Notes under the pieces: model-generated
Told to the model about the DNA's origin: nothing
The model's input: only the letters and a program-made list of their open reading frames with translations
The model's database searches: none
Made by a program: the position numbers and the translations under genes
Assembly (NCBI GenBank): GCA_029204225.1
Contig: CM055102.1
Span: 15,872,229-15,936,228 of the forward strand
Origin: Diphasiastrum complanatum
Lineage: Eukaryota > Streptophyta > Lycopodiopsida > Lycopodiales > Lycopodiaceae
Length of the DNA: 64,000 bases
Direction of reading: 5' to 3'
Shown: piece after piece, positions 16,859 through 62,233 of the stretch
Position numbering within the stretch: position 1 is the first letter of the stretch
Layout of the letters: every line of letters starts with the position of its first letter

Positions 16859-16967
16859 TCGTTATGGCTCTTGCGTCACGGAAGAGTCTCAGCCAGGATG
16901 TGGCATCTGTTTTAGAAAAGATAACTACTGCATCCGAATGCGACCAAGGAGGCTCAATCTACGCAAC
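16859..16967 (+). CDS. Host gene exon A (possible start exon)
   Basis: After an acceptor-like AAATTAG the frame reads V-MALASRKSLSQDVASVLEK and then ITTASECDQGG, ending two bases into a codon at donor GTAAGG (16968). ATG at 16864 is a plausible start, but the frame is also open upstream, so this may be an internal exon. The phase fits exon B exactly: AC plus the first base of exon B completes a Thr codon. From ATG 16864 through the next four exons the coding length is 552 bases, exactly 184 codons, without a stop. The protein family is not recognised. Confidence 0.6.
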
Positions 16968-17174
16968 GTAAGGAATAACGCATTCTGATTATTGTTCTTA
17001 GTTGAGTTCAGTAAATATTAAATGGATTATTATGTAAAAATTCTCGATACATATAAGCATCACCGATTCAACGTTGTACTTGTTAGCTAGTTGCTTATTT
17101 TTTCCTGATGGAAGATACATTCCCTACGTTCACACGAGAGAGGCTGATTCATAAGAACTTTTTGTTGTTTGGAG

Positions 17175-17283
17175 AAGAGAAGAGCAAAAGAATGCATTGG
17201 TGGAGGCACGGGGTTGCATCGAAAGGCTTTTGTTGGAAAATATCCAGCTTGAAAATGATCGGGATGCTGTACAAGAAGAAGCT
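17175..17283 (+). CDS. Host gene exon B, coiled coil
   Basis: The acceptor is TTGTTGTTTGGAG (an alternative acceptor 3 bases later keeps frame). The exon encodes REEQKNALVEARGCIERL and LLENIQLENDRDAVQEEA with regular hydrophobic spacing typical of a coiled coil, and ends on a whole codon at donor GTAAGC. The intron before it is 207 bases. The sequence is not retroelement-like, has no stop and shows Glu/Lys-rich helical composition, matching the exons that follow. Confidence 0.68.
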
Positions 17284-19459
17284 GTAAGCCCTAAACACTA
17301 GAATTCTTAAGTCAGAACTTGTGGTTTAAAAACTCAATGACAGCTCTTGTGATGATACACAATTCTTCTCCATTCTGTTTTGTTGCATTTTCTGCATATA
17401 GGAGTTGAAAATGTCCGCTTATTTCTATAATCCACAATCAGCAGGTATTCGTTGACAAAGCCAGTTTTGAGATTTTCCAGTATCGCCTATATATTGTGGC
17501 ATTGACAATTTCCTATATGATACTTCAACACTAACGGTATTTTGACAGTGGGGACCTGTGGAGGGAGAGTTATAGACCAAATAATTTGGATAGGGACATA
17601 TATATGGATCATGGATGCACTTCTGATCAAAAATCATTTGGACTAATTAGTTTGGGCACTTGGAAGTTGGGACCACAATTTACTAATTGGTATTTATTAA
17701 GACATTTATCGCATTTATTCAATTATTATTGAACCTACACCTACAGAGGTACTACATAGACCCTGATGCTAGTGTGGGCTCTCAAGGACTAAAAATAGTC
17801 TGTAAAGACTCATTGTCGGTGGTTGAGTGATTGGAGACTAGTTCTTAGAGTGGCAGCTAGAATTAGTTAGCTTTGATACCTTAGATTCAACTTCAACGAT
17901 TGAATTGCTAACAGAGATAATCAGTCTATCATATCATTGTTCTACAGTTCTTGATCTATAGTTGGTAGCCTCCTCTCTCTAGTTTTGTTCTATGGTGATG
18001 TTTTACCCATTACTACAGTAAGAGTGAGCTCACATATTAATTTAATTCATGTCGTTGCTCACTTCTTCAACTAGCTAGTCCTCCATGAATATGTTCTGTT
18101 AGTAGTGTAACTTAACTATAATTTGCGAAGGAAAAAGAAATGAAAGAATTACCTGACAATAGCCTTTGGCACTTGTTAATATTGCTTTAACATTGTATTT
18201 TATGTTGGAATCAGGAAGTACCCTAGTTTCATGATCTATTACCTTCTTATTTACACCTTGGTTGTTTCGTGAAAAGCAGTACTTGAAATTCCATTTTTTA
18301 GGGTGTGCAAACTACATATCATATCTTTACAAAATGCAGCCTTATATGATGAAGAAGTCTGGTTTGCAATTTAGAAAATCAGATTGCTTGTTTTCTTGAA
18401 TATATGTATCATCAGTGATCCGCAAAGCCTTGGTTTTAACAGATAATTTTTGCTGAATTTGTTTTGAATGTAATCTACGTGTTGGACAACTTGAGTGTAT
18501 TGTATTTAGCTTGCTCTTGTAAGCAAAGGAGCTTCAATGTTTCCCTGATATTCCCCTATATTCATGTCATCCTTCTTTGAGCTATTATGGGAGACATTGC
18601 TTGGAAGATATGTAGAAGGTTATCAAGTTAACAATGCTTTAGAGAAAAAGAACAAATTTCAAGCCTGTATTGCTTATGAAGTTTAATTACATTTGTCAAC
18701 ATTGTCTATCGTCTAGAATAATTATGAATGACTAAAAGATTCAAGAGTACTTGTATAAAACATTATTTGTTTGTTTATGGATTGGGAGCACTCATTGATG
18801 AGGCATATGATGACTTCTCACAACTTAGTGGTAATGCAACCTAGGATCATGAAAAGAAAGCATTTAGCTACTCGATCCTTGTAAGCAATAAAGAAGACAT
18901 TGTTACATATTTGAAGTAGATTTCTTTGAAGCCTTTGAGAGTCTATGACTAGCTATCATATGGGCGGAACAAACCTGTTTTTCATCGTTCTTCATGAAGT
19001 TCATGAAGTTCAAGCTCTCTAGCTCTTCTACTCAACATATGTATATATATTTTTGTTGAGAATGTTTGCGACTATGTTTGTTTGATAAAATCTTGAATTT
19101 AATCTTGTCAAACCTTTATTGATACCAATTTTGCTTTAGAAAACATGCCACAAGATATTGTCATTGTAACTTGCTTCTGCATATACATGACTTACCAAAA
19201 TTATGAATTTTTTTAACAAAATATCTAAGGTGTATGTGTGTCAACATGTACGCATAAATGTCAACATATATGCATAGTCTATAAATTCAAATATTTAGGC
19301 CAATATTAGCCAACTAAGCAAAGACATTAACATAGTCATAATAATCTATCAACAACATTGAGTAAAAATCTATCTTTAACGTTTATCTTGATAGTACTCG
19401 CCTCCTAGTTCATATTGATTTATGTTTTTTGGTTATGATGTTTCCTTGCTGGATGTTAG
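17284..19459 (+). other. Intron between exons B and C
   Basis: 2,176 bases from GTAAGC to a TTAG acceptor. No transposon coding sequence is recognised inside. A 43-base exon-like segment at 17402-17444 was considered and rejected because it breaks the frame. Confidence 0.5.
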
Positions 19460-19540
19460 TTTGCTTCTACAAAGTTATACGAGGAGGATATACGAAAGAA
19501 AAGTGGTCTTATCTTGGAGCTAGAGTCAAAACTAGAACAA
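19460..19540 (+). CDS. Host gene exon C, coiled coil
   Basis: 81 bases, phase 0 at both ends: acceptor TTTCCTTGCTGGATGTTAG, donor GTAAGT (consensus). It encodes FASTKLYEEDIRKKSGLILE and LESKLEQ, continuing the heptad-like pattern from exon B. A second acceptor 15 bases inside (CTACAAAG) would also keep frame. The next recognised exon is 25 kb away. Confidence 0.68.
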
Positions 19541-19869
19541 GTAAGTGTAAAATGGTCAAAAGATGGATGCGATTGCCTCTTGCATAGTTTGAAACATTAC
19601 AATCTAAAACTAAAATTTAGTTTGTCATTTAAAGTGCGATTGAACCAATTTCTATAATTTGGACGTCATCGAGGTGAAAAGTAATATGCATTGTGCATTC
19701 TTGGGCTAGAGTTGTGGTAAATTGTTTTCCTACATTATGATCATGTATTTAGACATCACATCAAAGTGATCTTGTTGGCCTGGGGTATGTCCAATGAAAT
19801 GGTTCAGCACATGTGCACGGGTGGAATGTCAACGAAACACAACAAGAGAGGATGAGATGAGATGCATAC

Positions 19870-21719: not shown

Positions 21720-21775
21720 GATGTTGATCCTGAGTTGTTCCCTTTCTTACCAGCTGCCATTCACCAGGTTTGCCT

Positions 21776-21972
21776 TCACCATAGTCGACGCTGCAGGCAG
21801 ATTCAGTTTTTCTTGAGAGTGGGATGGTCGTCCTCTTGAGGTGGCCACTTGGGAGCCTATTGATGTGTTTTATCATACACCATTATTGGCATATCAGACT
21901 CGAGCCCTCATGGCTTTAGTTCTCTCCTCTACTACAGATGTCATTGTAGATGTTCCCTCTGCTTCATGATTC
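21776..21972 (+). pseudogene. Ty3/gypsy polyprotein C-terminus
   Basis: The frame EWDGRPLEVATWEPIDVFYH, then TPLLAYQTRALMALV, matches the C-terminal tail of the gypsy copy on the - strand near 57240-57110 (QWDGRPVEATWEPIDVFYH...). The WxGxPxEATWEP motif is typical of the chromodomain-like tail of chromovirus integrases, which reads chromatin to guide insertion. Only this tail survives; a stop precedes it. The hAT element lies immediately to its left, so the rest was lost there. Confidence 0.75.
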
Positions 21973-22188
21973 GGCTAGCTATGACTATTCTTTATTGTCG
22001 TATTTGCTTAGTACTTGCTTTACACAGTTATGATGCTTTTGGGGTATCCGTTGTGACGACTTATGTCCTCTCCATCAGTATTTCCATTAGTTTGTGATTT
22101 TTCAGTATTTAGCATGCTTACATTATTGTTTTAGATAGTCATTATGCTTGCTAGCTGGTGGAGGGCTTTGTTTTTCTACAGGAGAGAG

Positions 22189-25244: not shown

Positions 25245-25249
25245 TGGAC
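25245..25249 (+). repeat. Target-site duplication, left copy (TGGAC)
   Basis: TGGAC immediately before the 5' LTR is matched by TGGAC at 31489-31493 after the 3' LTR: a perfect 5-base duplication as made by gypsy integrase. Confidence 0.95.
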
Positions 25250-25607
25250 TGTTACGAGCTCGTAACCAGTGCCGAACCCTAGGGAACACAGATAGGTCAG
25301 ATACCACAGTCAGGGTCGTGTCCAGTGTACATGACCAACAGGGCAAGACAGTGTGAGTAGTGTGCCCCAGCACGGTCCATAGCCATGGCGGGCCTAACAC
25401 AGCCTAGGGACCCTGTCAGCAGGATAGGGCCCCCAGTTGGGTCCCGACGTGCAGTCGACCACGTCAGTGCCACGTGGCCGACACTTGGCAGTTGCATGCT
25501 ACCAGTCCTCACACTGGGCTAGGAGGGGCTTACTCTATATCAGGGAGTAGGCAAGGTTGGGTGGATCAGTTAGTGTTTGCCCTACTGTGGTGTTAGGATC
25601 TATTACA
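25250..25607 (+). repeat. 5' LTR, 358 bases
   Basis: It runs TGTTACGAGCTCGTAACC...CTATTACA. The first bases form the palindrome GTTACGAGCTCGTAAC. A TATA-like CTCTATATC lies near 25531. It carries the element's promoter in U3 and R. Same LTR class as the copy at 61222-61617 and the remnant at 35123-35285. Confidence 0.97.
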
Positions 25608-25608
25608 C

Positions 25609-25620
25609 TGGTATCAGAGC
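25609..25620 (+). other. Primer binding site, tRNA-iMet
   Basis: TGGTATCAGAGC, one base after the 5' LTR, exact complement of plant initiator-Met tRNA 3' end. It primes minus-strand cDNA synthesis. Confidence 0.96.
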
Positions 25621-26342
25621 CATCTCCATCCTAGGGAGTTAGGAGCAGCAGTAGAGAAAGCTATCAGAAGATAGGAAGTGTTTCTCAGATTCTCAGAGAG
25701 GAATAGAGGAGGAGGATCGCTGTAGGAGCAGCCTTCAAACTTCTGATTTCCACTGAGAAATCACAGTAGCAAGGAGTCAGATTCCAAGTGTAGGTAACTC
25801 GCTGAAAAAACAGCTGTTTCTCACTGAGTTCAGAGGATTCTCTATAGTTTTCCCAGCGAAATTAGAGTAGGAAGAAGCCAGCACCTCCATCGCTGTACAG
25901 TCAGAGACCTACATCCGATTTCCAGGGAAAAAGTTACTGGTTCTCAGCGAGTTTGAAGCCAAAAAAGAGGAGCAGGGCCAGCGCTGCCAGTGCTTCTGAA
26001 AATCTGGTTTTTCAACAAGTTTTTGGGCCCCAACGTCAGAGATTTGGAGCAAGAGGATTCCTACCAGATCAGCGAGTAGGAGACTTCTGAAATTTCAGAA
26101 TTCAGAAGGGTTTTTGGACTTCAGATTTGCCTTTTTGTGGACAAATTGAGATGCTGTCAGACCAGCGAGGGGGGATAGCAAAAGCTTCAGATCTTGTTGC
26201 ACATTTTCCGACCTCTGTATTCTCTCTGTGGAAGTACAGTTCTCAGAAAGAGCTAAGTTTCCTTTCCCTTGTATAGTTGTAAATTAGTCTTTTAGACTTT
26301 TTTTCCTTCAGAAGTTAAGGTAGCTCTCTTTCAGTTCCAAAG
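25621..26342 (+). other. Leader of the young gypsy element
   Basis: 722 bases without a gene, with repeated CAGCGAG/CTCAGCGAG words. It ends in AGTTCCAAAG before the gag ATG. Presumably it holds packaging signals. Confidence 0.6.
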
Positions 26343-28253
26343 ATGACCACTCCTCAGGGACCTGATCAACCCCCGGAGAGAGGCTTCGATGAACTTGAAA
26401 CAGAAGCCTTGGCTTACATAAAAGGGAAGGAACCCATGGAAGTAGAAGAACAGGAACAGTTCGCCGAAGAACTCGACGAACTGGTTACCAAGGAGCAGTT
26501 CCTCCAATTGGTAACAGAAGTGGATGAACTGAAGCTGGCATTAGCCAATTTCAAGTCCAGTGTGGACGACTCGTTCGAAAACTTGATTTTGAGTTCCGCG
26601 AAAGGAAGCCTTCCCTCCACTTCTCAGTTATCCCCTTCTCCACTTCCATCAGTTTCGGGTGAGACTTTACGGTCTCACCCCAGTGTTTTTAAAGATTTAA
26701 AGCCTCCTACTTTTAATGGGGAAGAGAAGGATAGAAATGCAGATATTCTACAAACCTTCCTCAGCAAATGGAAGAACATTCATGCTCTGAAACAGACCCC
26801 TGACCATTTGCAAGCTATTGAGGCCAGTCTTTCCTTAGGGCCTATGGCCTATAAGTGGTGGTTAAATCTCCAGGAGACTGGGCAGACTCCCCGGTCATGG
26901 AAAGCTTTTGAAGAAGCTTTCCTAAGAGAATTTCTACCAAAGAATGAACTGGATAGAGCCTGGGAAGCCTGGGAAAGAACAGTAATGGATAAATCCCTCA
27001 TCCAATATATCTCGCAGTATCGAGAAGCAATTTTAAAGATTAAAAATATGGATGACTATCAGAAAATCAGGGGATTTGTCCGTGGCCTCAAAGATGAATA
27101 TAAAGTAGAGGTCCAGAGAAACTCGCCTACTACCCTTGAGCAAGCTCTCAGATATGCTCAAATCTATGATGATTCAGTGGGTAGGAAGAGAGCGAGACAG
27201 CAACCACTTTCTGAGCAGCTTCCTCAGAAAGACTTACAATTTAAAAAGAAATTTTTAAAAAGAAAGAAAGAAGATAAATTTAAAGGTGAAGCTCCTCAGA
27301 AACGCCCTTCACTCATACAGCCCTTAAAACCAGATGATTTTGAGAAAGCCAAACAAGAACGTTTGTGCTTTGTGTGTATGGGCAAGGGACACACAGTCAG
27401 ACAGTGTCCCAAGGGGCCCTTCACTAAAAAAGATAAAAAAGATAAAAAACAAGTTCATCTTGTTCAGACTGTATGTTTCCCCAGTGACTCGGCAGCTTCC
27501 GAGATCAAAGTGTATCATGAAGATCATGAACACTGTTGCCAGCTGACCTCTGCAATGTTAGCGAGACCCTTCAGCTTTGGGCCGCATGACCTAGTACGTA
27601 TGCATGGGAAAGTTGGTAACCAGTCAGTAAGAGTCATGGTTGATGATGGGGCAACCCATAATTTCATCAACCACACCCTGGTTAAAAAGCTTAAACTACC
27701 AGAGGTACCTAGTCAGCATAGGTACATAGTTTCATTAGCTAAGGGTGAAGATAAAAAAATATGGGAAACTATGGTAAGTAAGTTAAATCTTGGTATTCAG
27801 GGGTACCAAGATGAAATAAACTTTCAGATAATGCACCTGGATCGAACAGACATTGTTCTCGGGAGAGATTGGCTCTACAGTTTAGGACCTTCCCTCCACA
27901 GAAACTATCAGGAGAACACCCTCAGCTTTCAGCATAAAGGCCGAGAGATCCAGTTGCATGGGGAGCATGATGTTCCCAACAGCCCTATGGTCTGCAGTTC
28001 AGAGCTCTGTCAGCTAATCGGAGACGAAGACCATCAGGTATTCTTATGTGACTTTCAGTTTATTCCTGAAGTTTCTATTTCCAGTTCTATTCAGCAGAAA
28101 ATTAGTAAATTAGAAACTTTATTGTCTAAATTTAAAGATGTTTTTCCTGAAGATTTGCCACATGGTTTACCACCTAGCAGAGAGGTAGATCATGTAATAA
28201 ACCTAGTACCAGGTACAGCACCTGTTTCTAAACCTCCGTATCGGGTCAGCTGA
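26343..28253 (+). pseudogene. Gag-protease part of the polyprotein, ends at a TGA
   Basis: 636 codons from MTTPQGPDQPP. Order: an N-terminal charged region; the capsid-like retrotransposon Gag domain (about residues 110-290, with AYKWWLNLQE and SWKAFEEAFLREF); a Lys-rich stretch; a CCHC zinc knuckle CFVCMGKGHTVRQC (about residue 342) that binds RNA; then a pepsin-like protease with VMVDDGATHNFI (active Asp near residue 434) and IVLGRDWL. It runs on to the RT entry motif PPYRVS, where TGA at 28251 interrupts it. Family members continue as one frame into RT, so this stop looks like a mutation in the spot usually occupied by Trp. No long overlap with the next frame allows simple frameshift expression. 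Confidence 0.93.
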
Positions 28254-28345
28254 ACAGAGGATGAAGAAATAACTAGGCAGTTAACAGACTATCTTGGGAA
28301 AGGCCAATTCAGACCAGTAGTTCACCATGGGCCTCACCAGTCCTA

Positions 28346-31120
28346 TTGGTGAAAAAGAAGGAGGGGTCTATGCGTCTTTGCGTAGATTACAGAGCCCTCA
28401 ATAAAGTCACAATTAAGAATAAATACCCTATGCCTCGGGCAGACGAGTTGTTTGATCAACTCGACGGGGCTAAGTTTTTCAGCAAAATAGACCTCAGATC
28501 GGGATATCATCAAGTCCGTATAAAATCGGAAGATGTCTCGAAAACAGCTTTTAGGACTCGTCACGGTCATTATGAGTTTAAGGTGATGCCATTTGGGCTC
28601 ACAAATGCTCCAGCTACCTTTATGACCTTGATGAACAGTGTCCTCAGACCATACTTGGGTAAGTTTGTAGTCGTATTTTTAGATGACATCCTCGTCTACA
28701 GCAAAACGAGGAAGGAGCATCTAAAACACCTCAGAAAGGTGTTTCGACTGCTCAGAAAGCATAAGCTTTATGCTAAACAATCCAAGTGTGAATTCTTCGT
28801 TGAAGAAGTAGCATATTTGGGTCACATTATCTCTTCAGATGGGATTAAGATGGACCCAAATAAGGTTAAAGCCATACTCAGTTGGCTGAGACCTCAGAAT
28901 ATTTTGGAACTTCAAATCTTTCTTGGTCTAGCAGGATATTACAGACGATTTGTCAAGGAATATGCTCAGATAGCAGTCCCTATGACAAATCTTCTTAAGG
29001 GGAAGGGAAAGGAGTTCATTTGGGAGTCCGCACAACAGGAGAGCTTTGATGCTCTCAAAACAGCCTTAGCTACAGCACCAGTTTTAAAGGTCGTCGACCC
29101 CAATCAGCCATTTGTGGTCGAAACAGATGCTAGCGACTTTGCAGTAGGCGCTGTGCTAACTCAGGGTGGACGACCAGTTGCGTTCGAGAGTAAAAAACTC
29201 GAGCCAGCTCAGACTAGGTACAGTGCCTATGAAAAGGAACTCTTTTCTATAGTCCATGCCCTTAAGACTTGGAGGCATTATTTGTATGGTGCCAACTTTG
29301 AGGTCCTGACAGACCATGAGAGTCTCAGATACCTTTGCAATCAACCTGAGCTTAGAGGTCGGAAAGCTCGTTGGGCAGAGTTGATGCAAGAGTTTGACAT
29401 GTCTATCAGATATAGGCGTGGAAAATTTAATACAGTAGCAGATGCCCTTAGCAGAATGCCTATGATAAACGAGCTGAGTTTTACTCAGATTCGTAATGAG
29501 TTACTCGAGTCCTTGAGAGGGAAATGCCAGCATGATGCATTCTTCTCTATTATCTGGAACTCAGTCCAGAACAGACAGTTACAGACTCCAGAACCAGTTC
29601 CCGGGGCTGGTGCCAGTTCATCCAAGAATACGGCAGCTTCCGTTGAGGATGATGATGAGTCCGAGTATACGTCGTCAGATGACGTTGAGGATTCTGAGCC
29701 TGTATTACCCAAGCAAACCCCTGTGGTTGAGGGTCAGTTGACTCAAGGATTCAAATGGAAACAGTATTCCATTCAGGATGAGTACTTGCTCTATAGAGAT
29801 AGAGTATGTGTCCCCAATTTAGAGGATTATAGGCAGCAGGTCCTATATGAATGTCATGACAATCCTAGCGCGGGACACCCAGGCATACAGAAGACCTATG
29901 AGCTTCTTCGTAGGCAATTTTTCTGGCCCAGTATGAAAAAGGACGTCCACCAGTATGTAACCAGTTGCCAGAAATGTCAAGTAAATAAAGTAGAGCGTTT
30001 AAAGGCAGGAGGGTTGTTGCATCCCTTAGAAATACCAGCTGGTAAATGGGAGAGTATCTCCATGGATTTGATAGTAGGCCTGCCTAAAACCCAAAAGCGT
30101 AATGACGCTATATGGGTCACAGTTGACCGTCTGACCAAAATGGCTCATTTTAGTCCGACCAAAACAACCGTTAGAGCTCCAGAGTTAGCGAGGTTGTTTG
30201 TAAACGGGCTATTTAAATTGTACGGTCTACCTTCCGGCATAGTCAGCGACCGGGACAGTAAGTTTACTGGAAATTTTTGGAGGGCAGTATTCCATCATCT
30301 CCATACTAAACTTAATATGAGTACCACCGACCATCCACAGACGGACGGTCAAACAGAAAGGGTAAATCAAGTGCTGGAGGATATGCTTCGTGCATACGTC
30401 AGCAAGAGGCAGACTAATTGGGAGGAGTATCTCTCGATATTAGAGTTTGCTTACAACAGTACTAAACATTCAGCTACGGGATACAGCCCATTTATGCTGA
30501 TGTACGGTTTTCAGCCACGCTCACCCACAGCTGTAGGGTTTAAACAAGAAAAAGTTGAAGCAGCCAGAAACTTTTTAGAAGACCTAAACCAGATGATAGA
30601 ACATGCTAAGCGTAGCATTAGACAATCCCAGGATCGAGCCAGGCATTATGCAGATCCACACAGACGGGATGTGCAGTTCTTCACTGGTGAGAAAGTCTAC
30701 TTGAGAGTTCCAGTTGACTCTAAAACCCTCAAATCAGGAGTGTGTGCTAAGTTGTCTCCAAGGTATTGTGGTCCCTTTACCATCAGTAGGAGACTAGGCG
30801 AGGTCACCTATGAACTAGAACTCCCACACAGCAGTAAGGTTTTTCCAGTCTTTCATGTAAGTCAGTTACGAAAAGCCTTAACCAGATCAGATAATCTGGT
30901 AGGGGACAGTGTTCTTGTTCTCCCATTGGATCCTCAACAACCTCCACATGAACCAGAGGAGATTCTTGATAGTAGAGAGACGCAGACTCGTCATACTCTG
31001 TACCGAGAATATCTGGTTAAGTGGAATGATCAGCCTGTTGAGAATGCCACTTGGGAAAGAGGCAGCGTCCTTCGCAAGATTTTTCCAGACTTTGTCTTAG
31101 AGGACCAAGACGGTTCTTAA
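28346..31120 (+). pseudogene. RT-RNase H-integrase part with chromodomain-like tail
   Basis: 924 codons, uninterrupted to TAA at 31118. Reverse transcriptase: [35 protein letters not shown] and [12 protein letters not shown] (catalytic Asp pair about residues 113-114). RNase [30 protein letters not shown] and LTDHESL. Then an acidic Ser/Asp/Glu-rich linker (about 420-465). Integrase: HHCC zinc finger ([10 protein letters not shown]...CQKCQ, from about 502), Asp near 573, Asp near 633 (SDRDSKF), Glu near 669 (DGQTERVN), GPF motif near 800, and a chromodomain-like end ([16 protein letters not shown], about 890-905). It lies one frame back from gag-protease, implying a one-base loss between 28254 and 28346. 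The ATG at 28346 is internal to RT, not a natural start. Confidence 0.95.
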
Positions 31121-31131
31121 GGGGGAGGGAG
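31119..31131 (+). other. Polypurine tract
   Basis: AAGGGGGAGGGAG directly before the 3' LTR and overlapping the stop codon. It primes plus-strand synthesis. Confidence 0.95.
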
Positions 31132-31488
31132 TGTTACGAGCTCGTAACCAGTGCCGAACCCTAGGGAACACAGATAGGTCAGATACCACAGTCAGGGTCG
31201 TGTCCAGTGTACATGACCAACAGGGCAAGACAGTGTGAGTAGTGTGCCCCAGCACGGTCCATAGCCATGGCGGGCCTAACACAGCCTAGGGACCCTGTCA
31301 GCAGGATAGGGCCCCAGTTGGGTCCCGACGTGCAGTCGACCACGTCAGTGCCACGTGGCCGACACTTGGCAGTTGCATGCTACCAGTCCTCACACTGGGC
31401 TAGGAGGGGCTTACTCTATATCAGGGAGTAGGCAAGGTTGGGTGGATCAGTTAGTGTTTGCCCTACTGTGGTGTTAGGATCTATTACA
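31132..31488 (+). repeat. 3' LTR, 357 bases
   Basis: Identical to the 5' LTR except for one missing C in the run at GGGCCCC. It is followed by the second TGGAC target copy at 31489-31493. Confidence 0.97.
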
Positions 31489-31493
31489 TGGAC

Positions 31494-33020: not shown

Positions 33021-33930
33021 CCTTCAGTTAGCCAGGAAGAAAGTTCGATTTCTTTCATAACTTCAGAGTGCGACAGACGTACTGAAGCTGCTTGGTACAT
33101 GACATGGATGGTGTGAACGAAAGTCAGTTAGAGCAGGTTTTGCAATCAATACAGAGTTTGAAAGGCAGTTTTGTTGGCTTTATATTGTTTTATGATCTAG
33201 GGTTTGGCTTCACTGCCCATTTCCTGAATTCAGACACCCAACGAAGAAGTATATATCAGGCAATGTTCACTACTCTTTCATCTGGATATTTGGCCAGGAA
33301 GCCTTGCAAGAAAGCATGGCCAAAAAGGTTCTTCCAGGGCTTGCAGATGAAAGGAGTGGTTGTGTCGCCTTTATGTACTCCCGGATTTTACCATGCCATT
33401 AATTGCTCTGTTTTCGACTCCACGTCAAACGTTTTTGGTGAGCTTTCACAAAAAACACCAGCTGGTTTTTGACCACTGGATCAGAAACTAGTGGGTGTTG
33501 TCTCTCAAGGCTCACCAAAAACGTTTGACGTGGAGTCGAAGATGGAGCAATTGATGATGTGGTAAAATCCGGGAGTACATACTGGCGTCAGAACTACTCC
33601 TATCATCTCCATGCACTGGAAGGACCTTTTTGACCATTGCTTTCTTGCATAGCTTCTTGGCCAAATATCCAGATGAAAGGGTATTGATCATTGCCTGATA
33701 TATGCTACTTCCTTGGGTGTCTGAGTTCAGGAAATGGGCAGTGAAGCCAAATCCCATACCCTAAACCAGCATGAAGCCCATAAAACTACCTTTCAACTTA
33801 TGTTCTTATTGCAAATATGCTTTAACTGACTTTCACTCACACGTCCCTGTCATATACCAAGCAACTTCAATACTTCTGTCACACTTCTGGAAGAGCTCGA
33901 ACTTTCTTCCTGGCTAACTTAAGGCTTGTA
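33021..33930. repeat. Large inverted repeat (hairpin), arms about 420 bases
   Basis: The left arm 33021-33443 and the right arm 33510-33930 are diverged reverse complements. CAGTTAGCCAGGAAGAAAGTTCGA, GGCTTCACTGCCCATTTCCTGAATTCAG and ACGTCAAACGTTTTTGGTGAGC all have partners. The spacer is 66 bases and itself partly pairs. Each arm still carries a stretch of the same open frame (FGFTAHFLNSDTQ, SIYQAM, TLSSGYLA), so the arms are an inverted duplication of a piece that was once coding. A transcript across it would fold into a long double-stranded RNA, the type of locus that yields small RNAs or young microRNA genes in plants. Confidence 0.9.
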
Positions 33931-42787: not shown

Positions 42788-44551
42788 ATGCCCGCATGTA
42801 GAGTACCTAATAGGACCCGTACTACTAGTAGGCCCCTGAACCGAGTTAGGACCCGGACATAATATTAACCATGGGGCTCTAGCCCATGGCTAGTACATAC
42901 TAACATGCATACCACTCGCATTTGGACATGTACCATAGCATGTCCCTAACTGTGGTCTCTGACACTCGGCTCTCTTAGGTTTTGGCTCGGGTTACATGCA
43001 TGTAACAATGTGCAAACTCCAACAAATGCAATCCGTGATGTGGAAGGCTCTCCAACATCTTATGGCAAAAATTCAAAATCGAATATTAAAGTTAACAACA
43101 TTTCACTTAACAAGTTTCAAGAATCAATATTGGTTTGAACTTTCAACTTCGAACGTTCAGTGTAGCGACTACGTCCATAAATTCATGATCTTTTCAGATA
43201 GCTTGGGATGCTTATTTTAGTATCTGTATATTTTTTGCTCTGGCATCCGTATTTCTTCAGCATGATGCGGTGGATGTGTTGTTGATTCGTTATTCCTAGT
43301 CTACTCTCTAGATGGCAGGTGTGGTCTTTTGGATGGTTTGGGCATTGCTATTGCTTGTTTATTAGACGCATCCATCTTCATGTTGGTTCCTTTTGTTTTT
43401 TTAGTATCATGGTCTCAATTTTTGGTAACTACATATGAGATACATTTTGATAAAATGATATCATTTGAGGCATGCTCATTATCCCGACACTTATGTTTAA
43501 TATTTTCTAAGCCCAACATTGTGGGCAACGTTTTTAAAGTCGGGTAAAGTTATAGACTGGTTATTACCACAACTATTGCTTGGGGCTATTCTTAGGGTTA
43601 CTCAAGGGTTAGGTTGACAGTTAGGGCACCTTTAACCTAACTTGTGGCACAAGTCACCTAGTTTAATATAAGTAGGTGTATTCCTTTGTTATTGCTTGTA
43701 GGGCTTTAAAACAAGGGATTTAGGGGCCTTTAGGGATACGTAAAAAAACCACAAAATTTTGATAGTGAGCCACTGGTCTGTAAGGAGGCAAATAAACTGG
43801 AAACTGGATGGGATCTTCAAGAAGTTCCTATTGTAAAAATAAGCAAGAATTCTGCAGCAGATTTCCCAGTTGTGAGGTTTCTAAATAGGTTATATGTGAG
43901 GGTCTGATAGTTATACTGAAACAAAGTCAAATAGTTTTAGCTTGCACATGCATTTTTTTGTCCATACTTGTCATCATAGTTGCCCGTTCCGGTGACAAAA
44001 TCTGGCCAGCAGATCCATCCCTCAAATGGCCACTCTTTCAGCTATGTGCACTTGAAAAATCCCAAACCAAACTGTCTGGAAATCGGGGCCCTGCTGCATT
44101 TTTCAACCTTTTCTTTTTGTATTTTTATTTTTGATACTCGTTCCATACCAGTACATTCCGGAATGTACTATACAGAACATACTGTACGTTCTGGGCTAAA
44201 ATGGTCGGAATGGGTTTTTGAGCTGCCTATGTACTTTCAACAAGAAGGTGCTTTTGCAAAGTAAAAGAAATATCCTTCAAAGCTGTAAGAGAGCCACTTG
44301 AAAATCATAGATACATGTGTTGTAAAATAATAATATATCATTGTTTTTTATATCCAGTTAACTTCCATTCAATTCTAGAATACCACTATGAAAATGATCA
44401 TGTGAAACTACCAAAAGAGCATCCAATAATTTTCAAAAAGGTGGATTGGTTTGGTAATGGAAATTCTGGTTCTATAAATTTGTGAAGTTGACTGGCTATT
44501 AACTGCTGAAAGGTGTAAAACATGTATATTTTTGTGATTGGTGTGAAACAG
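42788..44551 (+). other. No gene seen; intron before exon D
   Basis: No family motif on either strand. The last bases (TTTTTGTGATTGGTGTGAAACAG) form the acceptor region of exon D. Confidence 0.45.
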
Positions 44552-44704
44552 CGAGAGAATGAGATTACTAAGTTACTTCAGGACTGGAAGGAAGAAACAC
44601 AATTCAGTGCAAATGCTGCCAAAAAGGAGAGGGCTGATTTATGTAATCAAGTCATCAATGTGCAAACTGAGCTCCAGTCAGTTAAATCTTATCAGGACAA
44701 CAAA
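44552..44704 (+). CDS. Host gene exon D, coiled coil
   Basis: 153 bases (51 codons), phase 0 at both ends: acceptor GTGTGAAACAG, donor GTAAGC at 44705. It encodes RENEITKLLQDWKEETQF, SANAAKKERADLCNQVINV and QTELQSVKSYQDNK, a long amphipathic helix pattern. No retroelement resemblance. Joined to exon C it reads ...ESKLEQ-RENEITK... smoothly. The nearby LINE ORF1 also has coiled coil but begins with its own ATG after about 290 bases and is a separate unit. Confidence 0.7.
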
Positions 44705-44954
44705 GTAAGCATTTAGCATGTTAACATGTGTTTAAGTTACTTTGTACCTTCTATATAGAAATTGATACCTGATGCATATGAAATTGACAATTGTATTTAC
44801 TAAGCTTAACATGTGAAAAAGAGCTTGGCAGTTAAGTTGACAGGCTGAGATTGAATTTTCAGCATTTCTGAATGTGGGTGGGACTTTGTCCATAGTGTAG
44901 ACTTTTGTACAGTTAGTTCAGGTAATGATGGCTGTTGATTTAACTTTCAGGATC

Positions 44955-45571
44955 AACACATGTTTGGTTAACAATAAAATTCAAGAAGCAACATATGTTT
45001 GAGGAGAGCACTAAACTGATGTCACAGCTGAAAGGAGTAGTGGTCTCCTTACTGAAGGAGAAGAACTTGTTGCAGTCCAAAGTTGCCTTATTGGAGCAAG
45101 TGATCAACACCAAGCAGGTTGCAGCCTTGGAATCAACCACCACCATGATACGGGAACTTGAGAGTAAAATTGAGCAGCATAAAGACTCATGGGTAGCAGT
45201 CTTGAAGAAAGGCATCTCAGCCACCACGGAAGAGCGGTCAAGGGAGCAAAAGGCCCATAACATTAGGGTTCGTGGGATACCTGACACACAGGATGCCATT
45301 GCCAAAGCTACAAGATTTCTCGAGACCACTCTAGGACACATGACAGATGGGCTAGATACAGCTTGGAGGACCACCAGAGATGCAGCTACACTCATTATCT
45401 ATTTCACTTCCCTACAGAGTCGCCGAGATGCTTTGCGGTGTAGAGCTTAACCTGCGTGGCACCACTATCTATATGGATGACGACCTCACATTTATCCAGG
45501 TAGAGGAGAGGCGTAAGGCCTTTCAGGCAGCCCGAGAGTTTGGCAGACGAGTCATTTACCGAGATGGATGA
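44955..45571 (+). pseudogene. LINE ORF1 (coiled coil plus RRM-like)
   Basis: From ATG 44995 the frame has a coiled coil (LLKEKNLLQSKVALLEQVIN, MIRELESKIEQ), then KAHNIRVRGIPDTQDAI, which resembles the RNA-binding centre of L1-type ORF1 proteins (NIRIxGIPE). A frameshift near 45415 moves it to the frame reading LRGTTIYMDDDLTFIQVEER and RRKAFQAAREF, the C-terminal domain, to 45571. ORF1p binds LINE RNA as a trimer. The endonuclease frame follows directly, giving normal LINE order. Confidence 0.72.
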
Positions 45572-47074: not shown

Positions 47075-47077
47075 CAC

Positions 47078-48965
47078 CGACCCTAGCCACTTTGCTTAAT
47101 CGAGCAGTTGTCTCTGGCTTCCCTCCTGGTGCACCAACATCATCCACCCCATTCATAAAACTGGTGACCCCATGGACCCTAGTAACTATTGCACCATTAT
47201 GATTGGACATATCATTGCTAAGTTATATGGCACCATCCTCCAGTCAACAGTCAGTTCTGAGGCAGAGTCTAGGAGATTACATGCATTGGGCCAAGTGGGT
47301 TTCAGAGCACACTACTCCACCACAGATCATATCTTCACCCTTCGGGCCATTATTGAGGAGGCTAGACACAGAAGAGAGCAGGTCTTCTATTGTTTTGTTG
47401 ACTTCAGAAAAGCCTTCGACTCTGTTCCACGATCCCTTCTCATTCAGCGTCTGCGTGATCTTGGTTTCTCTACTAACACGATCTTGGCAATGATGGCACT
47501 ATATGAGAGAGTCCTTGGCTGTTTTCAGAGTGATACCGGCATCTCAGACCACATCTAGAGCACTATTGGCATGAAACAGGGTTGTTCTCTATCCCCAACC
47601 TTGTTTGGACTATATATCGACGAGATTGAGAGAGTTATTGAGGGATGCGGTGGCACAGGTTGCAGGCTTGGGAGCATCTTGATTGCTATACTTTTATATG
47701 CAGATGACGTGGTCCTCCTATCTTCTTCCAGAGAGGGATTACAGCGACAGCTAGACAGTCTTCATGCCTTCTGCAGTAGATGGGGATTGGGGGTTAACAT
47801 ATTGAAAACCAGAGTTATGGTTTTCAACACATCGAGAGCTTTTATGCAGCGCCAGGAACTCATCCTTGATGGGCAACCCTTGGAGGTCGTATCTTCTTAC
47901 ACTTACCTTGGCGTGCTTTTTACAGGCCCTATCTTTGGCATGCGACATGCAGCCTCCGCCAGACTTGGGAAGGGTCACGCCTCCCTTGTCTAGTTAGAGC
48001 GCTTCTGTTTCAGACGGTTTATTCGGGATGCCCCGAGTAAATGTCAGCTTTTTGATACTCTCGTTACTCCCACAGCCCTATATGCAGTTGAGGTATGGTG
48101 TGCGGGTCTTACATCATCGGATTGGGCCAGTATTTCACGACTGCAGGTTCTCATGCTATCTCGGATGATACAGGCTAAGCCATCTGTCCCACATCAGATT
48201 ATCCTAACAGAGTTCGTGGTCCCTCCCATACAGCTATCCGCCATCTTCCAGCTTATTCTATATATTCAGCGTATTATGACGTTACCCACAGATGAGCAGA
48301 GATACACACAGACGACACTTGCCTCCTCGCGAGACCTTTATGATCAGGGACATCGACTATCATGGTTCTCTCAGGCCTCCCGAATACTGGATACACTTGG
48401 GATTTCTATCACAGACCTTCCATCGGGCACCCATGAGTATATCAGACGCTTTCTCTATAGAGCATACCTAAGCCGGACATGGCAGGGATAGCTCGGGGTC
48501 AAACCCGACTATTACAGGACACACTTTCTGGAGCTAGACACTGTTGGATTTCCAGTTTTGCCACACTATCTCACCTCAGGACTATCTCATGGGCTTCGGT
48601 TTATTCTGGGCCAGTTCCGAGTGTCCTCACACCAGTTGGCGATTGAGACTGGACGCTTCAAGGGTACCCCACGAGAGGAGCGGCTTTGTCAGTTATGTTC
48701 ATTATCTATGGTCGAGACAGAGGAGCATTTCCTTTTCACATGTCCAGTTTACTATGAGATCAGAGGGCGATATCATTGCCTTTTTTGTCAGACATCAGTT
48801 ACATTACGGTCCCTCATCTCATATGAGGACCCTAGATGTGTGGCACTTATGATACATGAGATGTCCCTCCTGCGTCAGGACCTATGTTCAGACAGCTCAA
48901 CACACCTATCCAGACACACAGTCTCAGATTATATCCTTCTTCTCTCGCCGGAGAGGGTGCATCCT
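47078..48965 (+). pseudogene. LINE ORF2 reverse transcriptase and C-terminus
   Basis: It starts in the pre-RT region (TLLNRAVVSGFPPG), then SNYCTIMIGHIIAKLYG, GFRAHYSTTDHIF, YCFVDFRKAFDSVPRS (first catalytic Asp), MKQGCSLSPTLFGLYID, LLYADDVVLLSSS (catalytic YADD), VNILKTRVMVFNTSR and TYLGVLF. The C-terminal zinc motif CQLCSLSMVETEEHFLFTC (CxxC...HxxxxC) is at about 48690-48745. Several stops and frameshifts. It breaks at about 48960 where an opposite-strand gypsy begins. Reverse transcription at the nicked target is the family role. Confidence 0.88.
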
Positions 48966-51173
48966 GATTTGGTAATATCCAGAACGAAGGTCTATCTTGG
49001 AAAAGATTTTAGAGGTACCGAGCTGGTCAAAGAGGTCATCCATGTGTGGAATAGGGTACTGATTATGAATAGTCAACTTATTTAAAGCACGATAATCAAT
49101 ACAAAGGCGTTTGGTACCATCTTTCTTATTAATAAGGAGAACAAGAGCACCAAAAGGGCTGTGACTAGGAACAATGAGACCCTGATCTAACAAGGCAGTA
49201 ATATGGAGCTCAAGCTCATCACGCTCAGATCGAGACATACGATAAGGGGGACGGGAGGGAGGAGCAGAACCAGGACGCAAATCAATATGATGGTTCACGT
49301 CACGTAATGGTGGTAGCATCGTAGGTTCTGAAAAGACAAAAGTATACTGATGTAATAAGTCAGAAATCACCTGAGGAACAGCTACTGGTGTAGAAACTGG
49401 AGGAACTGGTACTGCCCGCTGAACACATAATAAGGCAGCACAATGAGCCTTCGGCAGGCTGCGAATAAAATGCTTCCCAGTAATGAACTGGAAGTCTCCC
49501 TGAGAATCAATGCCCACAAGTGAGTGTGTAACTGCATCATGTACAAATGTCAATGTCTGCTGTGTCAAGTCCAGTGTAACGGCTCCAAGAGATGCAAACC
49601 AATCAGCACCAAGGATAAGATCATAACGCTCCATAGGGATAATGTAAAGATCTGCCTGTCCAGAGAAATCTCCAATGCGGTATGGTAAACGCTGAAACAT
49701 CTGAGAACTAGGAAAAGAATGAGAAGTGGCAACCTCAACTGTGAGAGGCTGGGAAGCAGGAACAGGTGAAGCACGGATCCGACTAGTGATATAACTGCTA
49801 ATAAAAGAATGAGTGCTACCAGTATCAACTAAAGCAATATACTCTCGACCTGTAATACGCACACGTAACCGAATGGAGCGAGGACCAGGACGCCCTGTCC
49901 AAGTAGCATAGGCAAGCTGAGCTTGGCAAGTAGCAGGAAGTAAATCAGGGGAAGGCTCAGAGGATAAGTCAGGCTCATCAGAAATATGAATGTAGATATC
50001 GGAATTATCTGGAGTAGTGCCCTCATGGTAAAAAACAGCAGTAGTAGTAGGGAGAGGCTGGCGGCAATCACGGGCAAGATGGTCAGGACTCTTACAACGA
50101 AAGCAAAGACGCTTCTGTTGAAGATCAGCGAACTCTGCAGACGTGTAACGTCGGACAAAAGCAGGTCGAGGAGTCGGAGGACGAGGAGGCGAAGGGGCAA
50201 TGGAGAGAGCTGGAACAGAAGGGGCTGGTGTAGGGGTGAACGTAGCGGGAAAAGATGAAGCAGAAGGACGGGGTCGGGAGAAGCGGGAAGGAAGGGTGTC
50301 AGAGTACTTATGCTATAAAGTACTGGCAAGAGACATCGCCTCAACAAGTGTGGTAGGACGGAAGGAAGAAACATCATAACGTAAAGCACCACGAAGCCCA
50401 ACAATGTAACGAGAAATAAGCTCAGTGGGCTGTAGATCTGTGAAAAGATAAGAAAGCTCCATAAACTGATATGTATAAGAAGCAAGATCACTGGTTTGAG
50501 TGAGACTACGGAATGTATCACGTTGGCGGTCAAGCCACTGAGGATCAATCATAGCATGGCGGAGGTCACGGCGAAAAGTATGCCATACATGGAGCCCTTC
50601 CCGATCAGGATCAACTCTATAAACTCGCCACCACATGGCGGCACGTCCATCTAAATGTAAAGCAGCCAACTGGATTTTCTGAGGATCAGTCTTGGGGTAA
50701 ATCTGAAAATATGTGTCAAGCTTAGCAAACCAATTCTCTAATAAGTTCCCGTCGGAGGAACCGGAATAGGTAGCAAGCTGTACCCTATCACGAAAGTCTC
50801 GAGCAAAGTGTGCGTCAGGAAGTGGGGGACGAGGAAAGAAACCAGGAGGTGGGTTAGATGGAATGAACGGTCCACCACCAGGCTGACTAGCAGAAGAAGA
50901 TGGAAATCCAAATGGAGGGGGAGTCCCAAATGTAGGAAAAACAGGAGCTTTACCAGGACCATGAGGCTATAAAGAATCAATCTGTGACTGCATAGTAATA
51001 AAGCCGGTCATAACTGAATCGAAGCGAAGAACGAGGCCAGAAAGGGTCTCATCCATGTGACGAAACTGATCGGATAAGGTTTCCTGAGGAGTCTCACTCG
51101 GGGTAGGTGAATGTGCCATAATGATAGTGGAAGGAATAGACGAAAACTTGAGGGAGCGGACTCTTGTCGTCAC
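48955..51173 (-). pseudogene. Gypsy A: gag, protease and N-terminal RT
   Basis: The - strand frame begins near 51117 (MAHSPTPSETPQET), with Gag core LHLDGRAAMWWRVY and LASYTYQFMELSYLF (50669-50313), Pro/Ser-rich stretch, zinc knuckle [14 protein letters not shown] (about 50100), protease [14 protein letters not shown] and LILGADWF (49830-49590), then RT entry [29 protein letters not shown] and [11 protein letters not shown]. It ends abruptly at about 48955 inside RT at the LINE. Few stops: one at 50316 in the linker and one near 50968. Its own LTR and primer site lie upstream at 51784-52211, so it has an intact 5' end and a lost 3' end. Confidence 0.9.
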
Positions 51174-56577: not shown

Positions 56578-56584
56578 AGAGCCT

Positions 56585-56596: not shown

Positions 56597-57034
56597 TGTC
56601 AAAATTTGTGATACAAATTCTAGATGAAGATACTAGTCCTACTAGCACTCACACAAAACCAAGCATAGAGAGAATTCAGATCATAGGAGAATTGAGCAAT
56701 TTGCTCTAGCATAATGGAATGATTGTGGTGGGGCGCTAGCCTACTTAAATAGTTTCTCTAATGAATGAGAAAAGCTAAGAGCCTAAAGCAAATAGCAAAA
56801 TAGCAAAAGCTAATCGCTAATAATACTACCTATATTTGATAAAGACCAAAAATGAACTTCTAAGTACTAAATAGATCCTAATCTATTTGTAGTGCGCCCA
56901 CCTACATGCATAAGCCTTAAAAAACGAATTTACTATAAATAGAATGGCCCCTAAAAATAGCACGTAGGCATGGCCAAACTATCATTAAGGGATATCAAAT
57001 AAACATTAATTCCTCACATGAGCCGAGTCCATAA
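56597..57034 (-). repeat. LTR between gypsy C and the copia gag
   Basis: It starts TTATGGACTCGGCTCATG at 57034 right after a GGGGAGAG polypurine tract and ends ...AAATTTTGACA at the primer site: 438 bases. It shares the first 17 bases and GGGCGCACTA with the LTR at 51796-52211 but is otherwise diverged. It has pol and PPT on one side and a primer site with copia gag on the other. Confidence 0.78.
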
Positions 57035-58400: not shown

Positions 58401-59291
58401 TGTAAGGTAAGCTTTAACAGCTAAGAAGGGCAGCCCACCAAGCTTTTGAGTAGATGTCCACCAATGCCTCCAAAAGTCCTCCAATGTGCCTCTCTTCCAA
58501 TGCTCCTAAGATCCTTCCAAAAGTAGACAAACAAGATGGCCTCAAGAATTACCACCCAACATAGCTAAGATCCAAGCACAAGACAGACCTATCTAGCACC
58601 CCCTTGCTAAACCACAATCACAAGCATGCTCAAGATCCTACTCCCATCGTAGTCCCATATTAAAGATGATGATCCTCTCAAGAGCAAGCAAGCAAAATCT
58701 AAGCTCTCTACACACTAGTAATCCACTAGAGGATAGATGCAAATCACAACACAAGAAATCTCCCTTCAATTGGGCGGCCTCCCCCTCTCTTATAGATAGC
58801 CAATGACACACTCCAAAGCACTATGGAATGCCCACACAAGCCAATGAGAAAAGGGGCAATGGAAGGGCCAAGAGGCCCACAAGTTAGTGGAATGTCAAAA
58901 GACCCTTCCATAACTTCTGGTTCTTGAAATTAATTTCTTGGATTATTTAGGGGCATCTTGGGACCCTAGTAGGTGCGCCCTCCTACTAGTCCCCCGTGAT
59001 CCGTATGTGATGGCTAATTTTGGCCCAAGGCCTATTATGTGATCATGGCTCAAGGTTGAGACCCAAGGTCTAAGAAAATGACCAATTTTCATGGTAAGGT
59101 CCTCCTAACACCTCACTAGGTTCCATATCTCCATCCCAGGCATAGACACCTACATGTCCTTATCCAAAGACACAAGTACCTTAATCCAAAGGCACCTACC
59201 CTTAATCCAAGGGTGACTCGCCATTTAGCCCCCCAGACACTAAATGGGCAGATAGGGGTTAAAGTACTGCTAGTTACATAGGTATGAAACA
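58401..59291 (-). repeat. 3' LTR of gypsy B-family copy
   Basis: On the - strand it starts TGTTTCATACC at 59291, directly after polypurine AAGGGGGAAGGAA, and contains a promoter-like CTATAAGAGAG near 58793. The right boundary against gypsy C near 58400 is approximate. Confidence 0.6.
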
Positions 59292-59830
59292 TTCCTTCCC
59301 CCTTAACTTAAATTTTTCCTTGTATGGAAAAATTTGGAAAATTCTTCTAGAGATCAGCCTCTTTTTCCCAAGTATCTTCCTCTTCTGACTTGCCTCTCCA
59401 CCTGATTAAAATTCTCGAAGCACTCTATTCCTTAGAGTTTTCTGCCGGCTCTTAACAATTGCCTCGGGTTCAAGTGGTCCATTCGTGGACTCATGACGAA
59501 GAAGCTCTACTAGATCTTCCATAGGAACCAGGGTTTCCCCAACCCCCAATGAGGGTTTTAACTTACTAACGTGAAAAACATGATGAATTCCAACTGTTAG
59601 TTGGAAGATCTAGTTTGTATGTGACCTTGTTAATCACTTGCCAACTTTGCACACTTACCAATTTCAAGCCCCTAGCGTGACTAGGGACCCCATTGACCTC
59701 GAATTCCTTGTGCTTCTGAGACAGATCAACATAGTGCCTCGCCTTGTGTTGGGCACTTCTTATGCTGTCTTTAGCCAGCTGTAACATTTCTTGCATATCC
59801 GCAAGGAAATCAGCTGCGGCTTGCACCCGA
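59292..59830 (-). pseudogene. Gypsy B-family integrase C-terminus and chromodomain
   Basis: AKDSIRSAQHKARHYVDLSQ (59800-59700) and QVINKVTYKLDLP (near 59630), then LVRW-like and GKSEEEDTWEKEADL to a stop near 59350. It closely parallels 52560-52212 (the wording CGAAGCACTCTATTCCTTAG recurs in both), so it is a second copy of gypsy B and keeps the natural end that copy B lost. A segment of the GPF region is deleted. Confidence 0.8.
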
Positions 59831-61209
59831 AGGTTCTTTATGCCAACACTAATTGATGATCGAGGTTGATAACCAGACAGTCCACCTTGGATGTCTTGAG
59901 ACCTGCCCCCACCAGGTATGCAAGTTGCAACTCAAATTTGATTCTTGAATGCGCTTCTGTAGACTGTTGGAACTTGGTAAGTATTTACTGTTTAGTTAGT
60001 AGTGATAATTATTTCATGCAATGATGCGTGTGCCATGTATGGTCTTGATTTTTGACTCTTGTCAGAAGTTAGAACTTAGAATTTGTCACTTGTGCAATGT
60101 GCCCTCTGTTCCTGGAACGACTGCTGAAAGTTCATCAGGGCTTGAGGCAGATGGTTGTTGCTGTTGACTGGGCACAGTGGGGGCCGTCACAGGAGCCCAA
60201 GAGTAAGAGATTCGAGCGGACCATTATGCATTCACCGTCTTGGGATGAGGCTCGATCCATTGTGGTGGGCCTACAGCCCATCTACACTGTCCTGCGCCTT
60301 ACAGATCGAGAGGGCTGCACATTGGGCCTCTTGTACGAGTTCATGGACAGGCTGGGCGAGCAATTGAGGCTTTGCACGACCATTAGCGCTTCAAACAATT
60401 GAGGAAGTAACACCTCTGTCTTTCGCTTCAGCAATGACTCCAAGCGGTTGCTAACTACATGCAACTCCAAACTTTCGCTCCTTAGAAAGAAAAGTGGAAT
60501 CCGATGATCACTATTCTCTCAAAAGGAACTCCATTCCTTCGCTGCACCCTTGCAAACTTCAAACTGTGAAATAGTTGAAGCCAAAGTCACTTATGTCAGC
60601 AAGATGTGTGCTGGATTTCCGGTTGCAATACACCCAAATTTTGATGATAGAAATATGCCAGAATTTGTTCTCTCAGGGCGCTAGAAATCCTGAAGAAAAG
60701 TTTGAAATTGGAGCCTAAATGCTCTGCCATAGTGTGCCCTTATTGCTGAAAAAAAGAGATCAGAAACTGAGTATTTCTGACTCTAAATGTGCTAGAATTT
60801 CTGCTAGCAATACGCTAGAAAATCAGAATTGGAGCGATAGGTTGCTTCACAGAAATGCGATTGATCGCTGCTCCAGAAATTAGAGATTTAGTACTGTTGT
60901 CAGCGATTGAATGCTCCACCAAAATCAGCGATGGATGGCCCAAAAAAACACGCGCTCAGATCAGGCACAATAGTGCGAAATCCTCCAATTGGAAGTGCGA
61001 TTGTCTCCACAAATTTCTGCTTCTTGTTTGTCAGAAAAACAATGATTGTTTTCCACCAAAATGCGATTGAATGCTTTGCTAGAAAACAACGATTGGAGAG
61101 CCTGCCAAAAGAGTACTGCAAAACCAACCAATAGGCACTCCAAAAAACAGTAAGAATTTCTCCTCCAGATGGGCGCTGATCCTACTCTCCCTGATTGCCA
61201 AAATGACTT
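59831..61209. other. Retroelement leader with repeated motifs
   Basis: Apart from the hAT fragment below, this is probably leader of the - strand element whose LTR is at 61222-61617. The words GCGATTGAATGCT, CCACCAAAATCAGCGATGG and CAGAAATT recur between 60780 and 61140. No conserved frame. Confidence 0.45.
60090..60402 (+). pseudogene. hAT transposase fragment (DUF659 type)
   Basis: RFERTIMHSPSWDEARSIVV, then LQPIYTVLRLTDREGCTLGL and LYEFMDRLGEQL, parallels FWRDAQTLSGLLRPLYVMLR and STLGLVYELMDQIGQFL of the transposase at 19870-21719. Only about 100 codons of the segment after the DUF659 core survive, on the opposite strand to that copy. The sequence drops out after LGEQL, at the position corresponding to the hAT intron. 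Confidence 0.7.
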
Positions 61210-61221
61210 GCTCTGATACCA
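61210..61221 (-). other. Primer binding site, tRNA-iMet
   Basis: The - strand reads TGGTATCAGAGC next to the LTR end ...CCTAACGA. Confidence 0.92.
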
Positions 61222-61617
61222 TCGTTAGGAACAACATAACCACATAGAAGGCAAAGCTAGTCTGATCCACCTAGCCAATGCACTCTCTTATAAAATGCCC
61301 CTTCTAGCCTAGTGTGAGTTTGCATGGGAGTTGTAGGTGATAGTTGCTGCTGACACCCACCATTTGTGCTACATGCACTAGATTATTGTTGCATGCGGGG
61401 TCCTAGCCCATCACTGTAGGTGGGTGTCAGCAGCAACTATCATGCATGTGTCCGCATGTGTCTGCATGCATATGTATGTGTCCGCATGGGCATTACTGGC
61501 CCTCATACCAACTACATGGTATGCATGCAAGCCTCTGACTCACACTGTCCTCTGCCCTTTGGTGATTAGCTGCGCCCAGGTGTATTGTTGGGTTGGTACT
61601 GTTACGGTCTCGTAACA
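61222..61617 (-). repeat. LTR, young-element class, with internal palindrome
   Basis: It starts TGTTACGAGACCGTAAC at 61617 (- strand), like TGTTACGAGCTCGTAAC of the young gypsy, and shares CTCACACTAGGCTAGAAGG and GGTGGATCAG near its end. 396 bases. It contains a perfect 23-base inverted repeat (61339-61361 and 61419-61441). Confidence 0.82.
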
Positions 61618-61719
61618 ATTTGGCAGTGCTGCTTGGAGGAGGGGTAGGACGTGGGGGACTCTTCCTTCGTGGAGCCATGTCAGCAAGAGAGGTAGAGATG
61701 GAGCGCTAGTAGGCAGCCA

Positions 61720-62045
61720 TCGCTGGAGAGAGAGAAAGAGAGAGAGAGAGACAGAGAGAGAGAGAAAAGAAAGAAAAGCTTTATTAACGTCTTTTGGGCA
61801 CCCGTGGGTGCATAAGACCAAAAAGAAAATATGTACAAAGCAATAGTAGGAGCATCATCCATTGGAGGACGTGGCCGTAAAATGCTATAAACTAGCTACG
61901 AATGAAAGTAGAACAAAGCATAAGTGAAATAAGCCCACAACCCGGGCTGGGTATAACAGAAGAACTACAGAAAAAATACCAATGCCCACAACCCGGGCCA
62001 AGTGGAGAGTAAGTACATATCAGCGAAAGTAAGTGTGAAGTGTCC

Positions 62046-62100
<55 letters not shown>
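61720..62100 (-). mobile_element. Retroposon 3' ends with (CT)n tails
   Basis: On the - strand a segment ends GGTCTTATGCACCCACGGGT..., CGTTAATAAAGC, then CT-rich tail (61770-61720). The stem GCACCC/GGGTGC at 61798-61811 sits where the LINE hairpin is. A further (GA)n tract at 62049-62100 and two copies of AGCCCGGGTTGTGGGC-like words (about 61934 and 61987) lie behind it. Short, non-coding, SINE-like. Confidence 0.6.
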
Positions 62101-62102
<2 letters not shown>

Positions 62103-62128
62103 TTTATGTGCAAATGATTTTTTTGTAG

Positions 62129-62233
62129 GAGAAATTGGAAGGAGAGCTTGACAAGGCAAAAGGAGAAAAGGTTCAGCTTAGCAAAAAAAATCAAAATGAG
62201 ATGGCGGAGTTGGAAAGAAAGTATATTGAACAG
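62129..62233 (+). CDS. Host gene exon E, coiled coil
   Basis: 105 bases (35 codons), phase 0 at both ends: acceptor GATTTTTTTGTAG, donor GTCAGC at 62234. It encodes EKLEGELDKAKGEKVQLSKK and NQNEMAELERKYIEQ. The same Glu/Lys-rich helical style as exons B-D, and the frame joins exon D without a stop. The gene must continue beyond the window, since no terminal exon or stop was found after it. Confidence 0.7.

Follow-up and report, generated by a model that had tools for sequence, protein, structure and literature searches.

A putative coiled-coil gene with transposon-inflated introns in the genome of Diphasiastrum complanatum

A stretch of 64,000 nucleotides of the D. complanatum genome (hereafter the window; contig C11:15,872,229-15,936,228 of a 1.74-Gb assembly) probably contains a real nuclear host gene, which comprises at least six exons, has introns inflated by transposons and encodes a coiled-coil protein. 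A previous sequence-only reading of this DNA had proposed that five short plus-strand segments, designated A to E, are read in one continuous frame. This was confirmed to the base: the segments (104, 109, 81, 153 and 105 nt) form an uninterrupted frame of 552 nt (184 codons, no stops), each is bounded by AG and GT where an intron adjoins it, and all of them are consistent in phase. The joins are also as claimed, with a split codon between A and B and phase 0 at B-C, C-D and D-E, and the intervening introns are 207, 2,176, 25,011 and 17,424 nt long. No second copy of exons A to E was found, and the repeats lie between the exons, not inside them. The features of the locus are summarized in Table 1.

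Table 1. Features of the candidate gene and of the repeats in or next to its introns (positions in the window)
Feature	Position	Strand	Description
Exon A, candidate first coding exon	16864-16967	+	ATGGCT start; GTAAGG donor; no second genomic copy
Exon B	17175-17283	+	1 base completes the split codon; leaves in phase 0
Exon C	19460-19540	+	phase 0/0
Intron C-D	19541-44551	+	25,011 nt; hAT (DUF659), gypsy and copia pieces
Young gypsy LTR retrotransposon, wholly in intron C-D	25250-31488	+	LTRs of 358 and 357 nt
Exon D	44552-44704	+	phase 0/0; 1 genomic match for the surrounding 44460-44930
Repeat directly 3' of exon D, presumably LINE ORF1-like, outside the gene	45020-45570	+	about 320 bp downstream of D
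Exon E	62129-62233	+	phase 0/0; top coiled-coil exon score in the window
Candidate terminal exon F, frame 0	63180-63284	+	EMFRLRGEL, short tail, TGA at 63282-63284; strong acceptor
Alternative exon F, frame 1	63197-63439	+	80-aa tail ending in SSKIS; stop at 63437-63439

The start of exon A, as read from the sequence, has a G at position -3; together with ATGGCT it forms a context that favours translation starts in plants. Exon C has an alternative in-frame start at 19475 with an about equal score. A scan for further parts of the gene outside the window covered 10 kb on its upstream side and 19 kb on its downstream side. It showed a coil-rich open frame of 101 codons at L014:7387-7692 (equivalent to window position ~70390), 7 kb downstream of exon F, which was not linked to the gene.

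The strength of the exon signals was examined by scoring candidate internal exons, defined as open AG...GT segments of 60-250 nt, with dinucleotide microsatellites masked. The score combined an approximate plant splice matrix with a log-odds of coiled-coil composition, both tables being taken from general knowledge and not trained on this genome. Since exon A has no acceptor, it was left out of this scoring. Exon E obtained the highest score in the window (37.7) and exon B scored 22.2, a value reached on the plus strand by three further candidates: exon D and two transposon segments, one in the LINE ORF1-like frame and one in the gypsy gag ORF. On the minus strand of the window no candidate scored 22.2 or more. 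When the window was shuffled 12 times at the dinucleotide level, no candidate attained the scores of B, D and E, and 0.25 candidates per shuffle attained that of C. As a control with real sequence, both strands of 120 kb of contig C5 were scored, and two candidates reached the 22.2 of exon B. The top one, located ~35 kb upstream of the copy of exon F described below, reads like plant RING-type S-ribonuclease-binding proteins; the other appears to us to resemble copia gag.

Splice sites were ranked among the 4,559 AGs and 3,187 GTs of the window. The donor of C (top 0.3%) and the acceptors of E (top 0.04%) and F (top 0.13%) are strong, whereas the acceptors of C (26% of AGs equal or better) and D (10%) and the donor of B (13% of GTs) are weak. 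The weak C acceptor and B donor count against a host gene, as does the location of the weakly constrained tail of exon F in a frame other than the one entered from E.

The copy number of the exons was determined by genome-wide searches. All 1.74 Gb were searched in six frames with the joined peptide of 218 residues; every one of the 62 candidates was scored, and 11 of them matched at E<=10. Six of these are exons A to F themselves, all in the window on C11 (E = 1.6e-25 to 2.0e-6). The remaining five (E = 0.39-3.8), of which one had its surrounding ORFs inspected, were treated as coil noise; no second copy of A-E was found in this protein search. At the DNA level, the 201 bp around exon C have one match genome-wide, and so does region 44460-44930 around exon D (the single candidate scored). 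Region 15800-19760, containing exons A to C, gave 15 matches (15/15 candidates scored); the other 14 cover query positions 26-112 and 1762-2205 only and touch no exon. The uniqueness of E is based on the protein search, because the DNA search at the 3' end scored 40 of 3,100 candidates. In that search, 37 of the 42 matches were taken by a repeat family (77-88% identity) at 63633-63980, just past the 3' end of the gene.

A control DNA search with region 44900-45570 had 2,204 candidates, of which 40 were scored and all 40 matched. The 39 non-self copies among them all begin at query position 121 or later, i.e. at window position 45020 or beyond, which indicates that exon D adjoins the LINE repeat but lies outside it. 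No second copy of A-E was found, in contrast to the repetitive LINE downstream of D, and the exons thus look unlike transposon pieces. Homology of individual segments to repeat families, which the sequence-only reading had named as an argument against its own proposal, was found in neither the DNA nor the protein searches of the genome. The exons are therefore single- or low-copy (F has one diverged copy) with repeats in the introns, and A-E are not multi-copy together with an element, as the coiled coil of a LINE ORF1 or other transposon would be.

The claim that the introns contain hAT, gypsy, copia and LINE pieces was also borne out, the gypsy, copia and hAT (DUF659) domains being clear. 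The LTRs of the gypsy element in intron C-D differ by no mismatch and one gap, which points to a recent insertion; the intron was ~18.8 kb long at that time. The element is flanked by a 5-bp target site duplication (TGGAC, at 25245-25249 and 31489-31493), its pol includes a chromodomain, and its primer site is one that we take to be of the tRNA-iMet type. The LINE is supported by an RVT_1 match just under its cut-off (47100-47558) and by a weak zf-RVT match (48492-49085, E = 0.0072). The coil-rich open frame at 44944-45450, which starts ~240 nt downstream of D, has no Pfam match at cut-off, and the name LINE ORF1-like is our assumption. Intron C-D also contains a ~0.9-kb imperfect palindrome (33021-33924; 82% identity between the sequence and its reverse complement), possibly a foldback element. 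Elsewhere in the window, a plus-strand open frame of 171 codons (5799-6314) with a coil-rich stretch lies in transposon-rich surroundings; none of its Pfam matches exceeds the cut-off.

The candidate terminal exon F, which starts at 63180, was absent from the earlier reading and is an addition of this analysis. Its acceptor context is TTTGTTGATGCAG followed by GAAATG, it is in phase with E, and the joined product would have 218 residues. The residues EMFRLRGEL hold one heptad register over the E-F join, as judged by a simple heptad score alone. Frame 1 of the same region is open for 96 codons from 63149 (~0.3% expected by base composition). From E this frame-1 tail can be entered in phase only at 63197, where the acceptor is weak (score -0.4), and the product would then have 264 residues.

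Among the matches scored for region 63048-63637 there is one diverged relative, at C5:47436440-47437041 (minus strand, 72% identical), which spans exon F together with the edge of the preceding intron and the 3' flank. Decay of the C5 copy is evident from stops in frame, indels that shift the frame and an altered acceptor, and no partners of A-E were found near it (nothing better than E = 0.4 in 120 kb). In this copy EMFHLRGEL shares its frame with the greater part of the tail (RVDIG ... DEIEIPSRHRGQ ... PIKPAHSRAT), although a stop separates the two. The shared frame results from 13 nt that C5 has in addition to the window sequence: AGAGTT-N7-AGAGTT in place of a single AGAGTT.

Comparison of the frame-1 tail with C5 (alignment blocks under 13 nt dropped) revealed 7, 12 and 18 changes at codon positions 1, 2 and 3, respectively, with 64 sites each. 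The excess at third positions (18/64) over first and second positions (19/128) gives a one-sided p = 0.024, uncorrected and from a gapped alignment. No such excess was seen in the two flanks (8/12/10 changes of 44 sites and 14/18/11 of 59) or in sub-range 63281-63390 (3/9/7). These counts weakly suggest that the frame-1 tail was protein-coding.

Since the weakly constrained frame of F is offset from that of E, two C-termini are in play, giving 218 or 264 aa. The 3' end may be read in three ways: a recent loss of 13 nt could have truncated the protein, the acceptor at 63197 could be in use, or C5 could have gained the 13 nt, in which case the proposed 3' structure would be wrong. Two further solutions to the phase of the tail were rejected, namely a further exon in the interval from E to F (best summed splice score 0.1, encoding 6 residues) and an alternative E donor giving phase 1 (none in the 4 GTs examined). 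It is also conceivable, but quite doubtful, that the choice between acceptors 63180 and 63197, which lie 17 nt apart, toggles the C-terminus of a lineage-restricted coiled-coil gene: 63180 would extend the coil and end quickly, and 63197 would bring back the acidic tail of the ancestor, which a slippage event of 13 nt had put out of frame.

The encoded peptide was described in the earlier reading as Glu/Lys-rich, and exons B-E (149 aa) indeed consist of 30% Glu+Lys; the 184-aa peptide of A-E contains neither Pro nor His. The reading of the locus as a host gene was supported in part, as regards frame, phases and the lack of a second copy of A-E, but the expected single protein family matching the joined peptide in order was not found among 5.8 billion proteins, in PDB or in Pfam. 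In the 5.8-billion set the joined peptide shared words with 405 candidates, none at E <= 10, and D-E plus tail had 21 candidates, none matching; the word filter of this search has little power for coils that have diverged. When the hAT ORF was used as a control query, the same set yielded 19 proteins at E <= 0.001, 11 of them with seed-plant names, which indicates that plants are present in it; there was no lycophyte, fern or moss name among these matches.

The best PDB match was Nup82 (E = 0.14), and Pfam gave TPR-like matches at E = 0.51 and 0.94, with nothing below 0.2. An identity as a TPR or Nup82 coil was rejected, the matches being sub-threshold: the similarity is weak and of coil to coil only, and proteins of the Nup82/TPR type are longer, with other domains that the candidate protein lacks. 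There is a general resemblance to synaptonemal-complex central-element proteins (SCEP1/SCEP2/SYCE1 type), which are small, rapidly diverging and coiled-coil. An SCEP1/SYCE1 identity was not supported by PDB or Pfam, where no match reached E < 0.1. A report that SCEP1/2 homologues are absent from some non-flowering plants (Marchantia and Taxus; PMC12283363) also speaks against it. From the sequence, the product is a predicted coiled-coil scaffold or rod that would be fast-evolving or lineage-restricted.

Several other explanations of the locus were considered. The segments A-E might be unrelated open stretches, arising by intergenic chance or from old transposon pieces, that can be joined since a 45-kb search space is large. 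The rate at which shuffled windows yield a segment of C's level fits this explanation, as do the LINE ORF1-like and gypsy gag coils of the window, which score like B and D; it is very unlikely given that shuffling never matched B, D or E and that no second copy of A-E was found, whereas the LINE beside D is repetitive. Exon D in particular could belong to the neighbouring LINE and form the 5' portion of its ORF1-like coiled coil, whose frame starts close downstream and is also coil-rich. This can hardly be credited, as the region around D has a single genomic match and all 39 scored non-self LINE copies (40/2,204 candidates scored) begin downstream of it.

A recently dead pseudogene, i.e. the same ancestral gene with a window copy that no longer encodes the full protein, would explain the 3' frame damage and the transposon load as relaxed constraint. 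The 13 nt that the window lacks relative to C5 sever EMFRLRGEL from the tail, the C5 copy is damaged as well, and no homolog was found in 5.8 billion proteins. Against this, A-E are open throughout, the tail frame has stayed open over its 96 codons, and the in-phase acceptor at 63197, weak as it is, still reaches the tail; decay of the window copy is therefore an unlikely explanation, though not a far-fetched one, at least for the 3' end.

If the locus is a host gene, as we prefer, transposon insertions would have enlarged its introns to 25 kb and 17 kb, and the spliced mRNA would encode a protein of 218-264 aa, coiled-coil-like over most of its length. The product would most likely be a homodimeric or heterodimeric helical rod serving as a structural or scaffold subunit; that the A-F gene is transcribed and spliced, and that its product dimerises and functions, is what we infer. 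The 3' end of the gene would have been partly duplicated to contig C5. Slippage between AGAGTT repeats may then have removed 13 nt from the window copy, so that the tail would be cut short, or C5 may have gained them.

Gymnosperm introns over 20 kb in length and filled with transposons are documented (PMC9364684). The present locus resembles such long-intron genes in that its introns exceed 20 kb and contain inserted LTR elements and LINEs, and here the splice grammar is intact between short exons. It differs from them in that the genome is 1.74 Gb, the predicted protein has no recognised relative and the gene is known from DNA alone. Long transposon-filled introns in large-genome plants are already established, and among such genomes a gene built in this way is nothing unusual. 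If transcribed, the locus would be a clean example of a gene missed by ORF scans, with ~0.65 kb of coding sequence in ~46 kb. It would also show that splicing tolerates the very recent arrival of a gypsy element in an intron of already ~19 kb, and would add a coiled-coil protein of the host for which no relatives are recognised.
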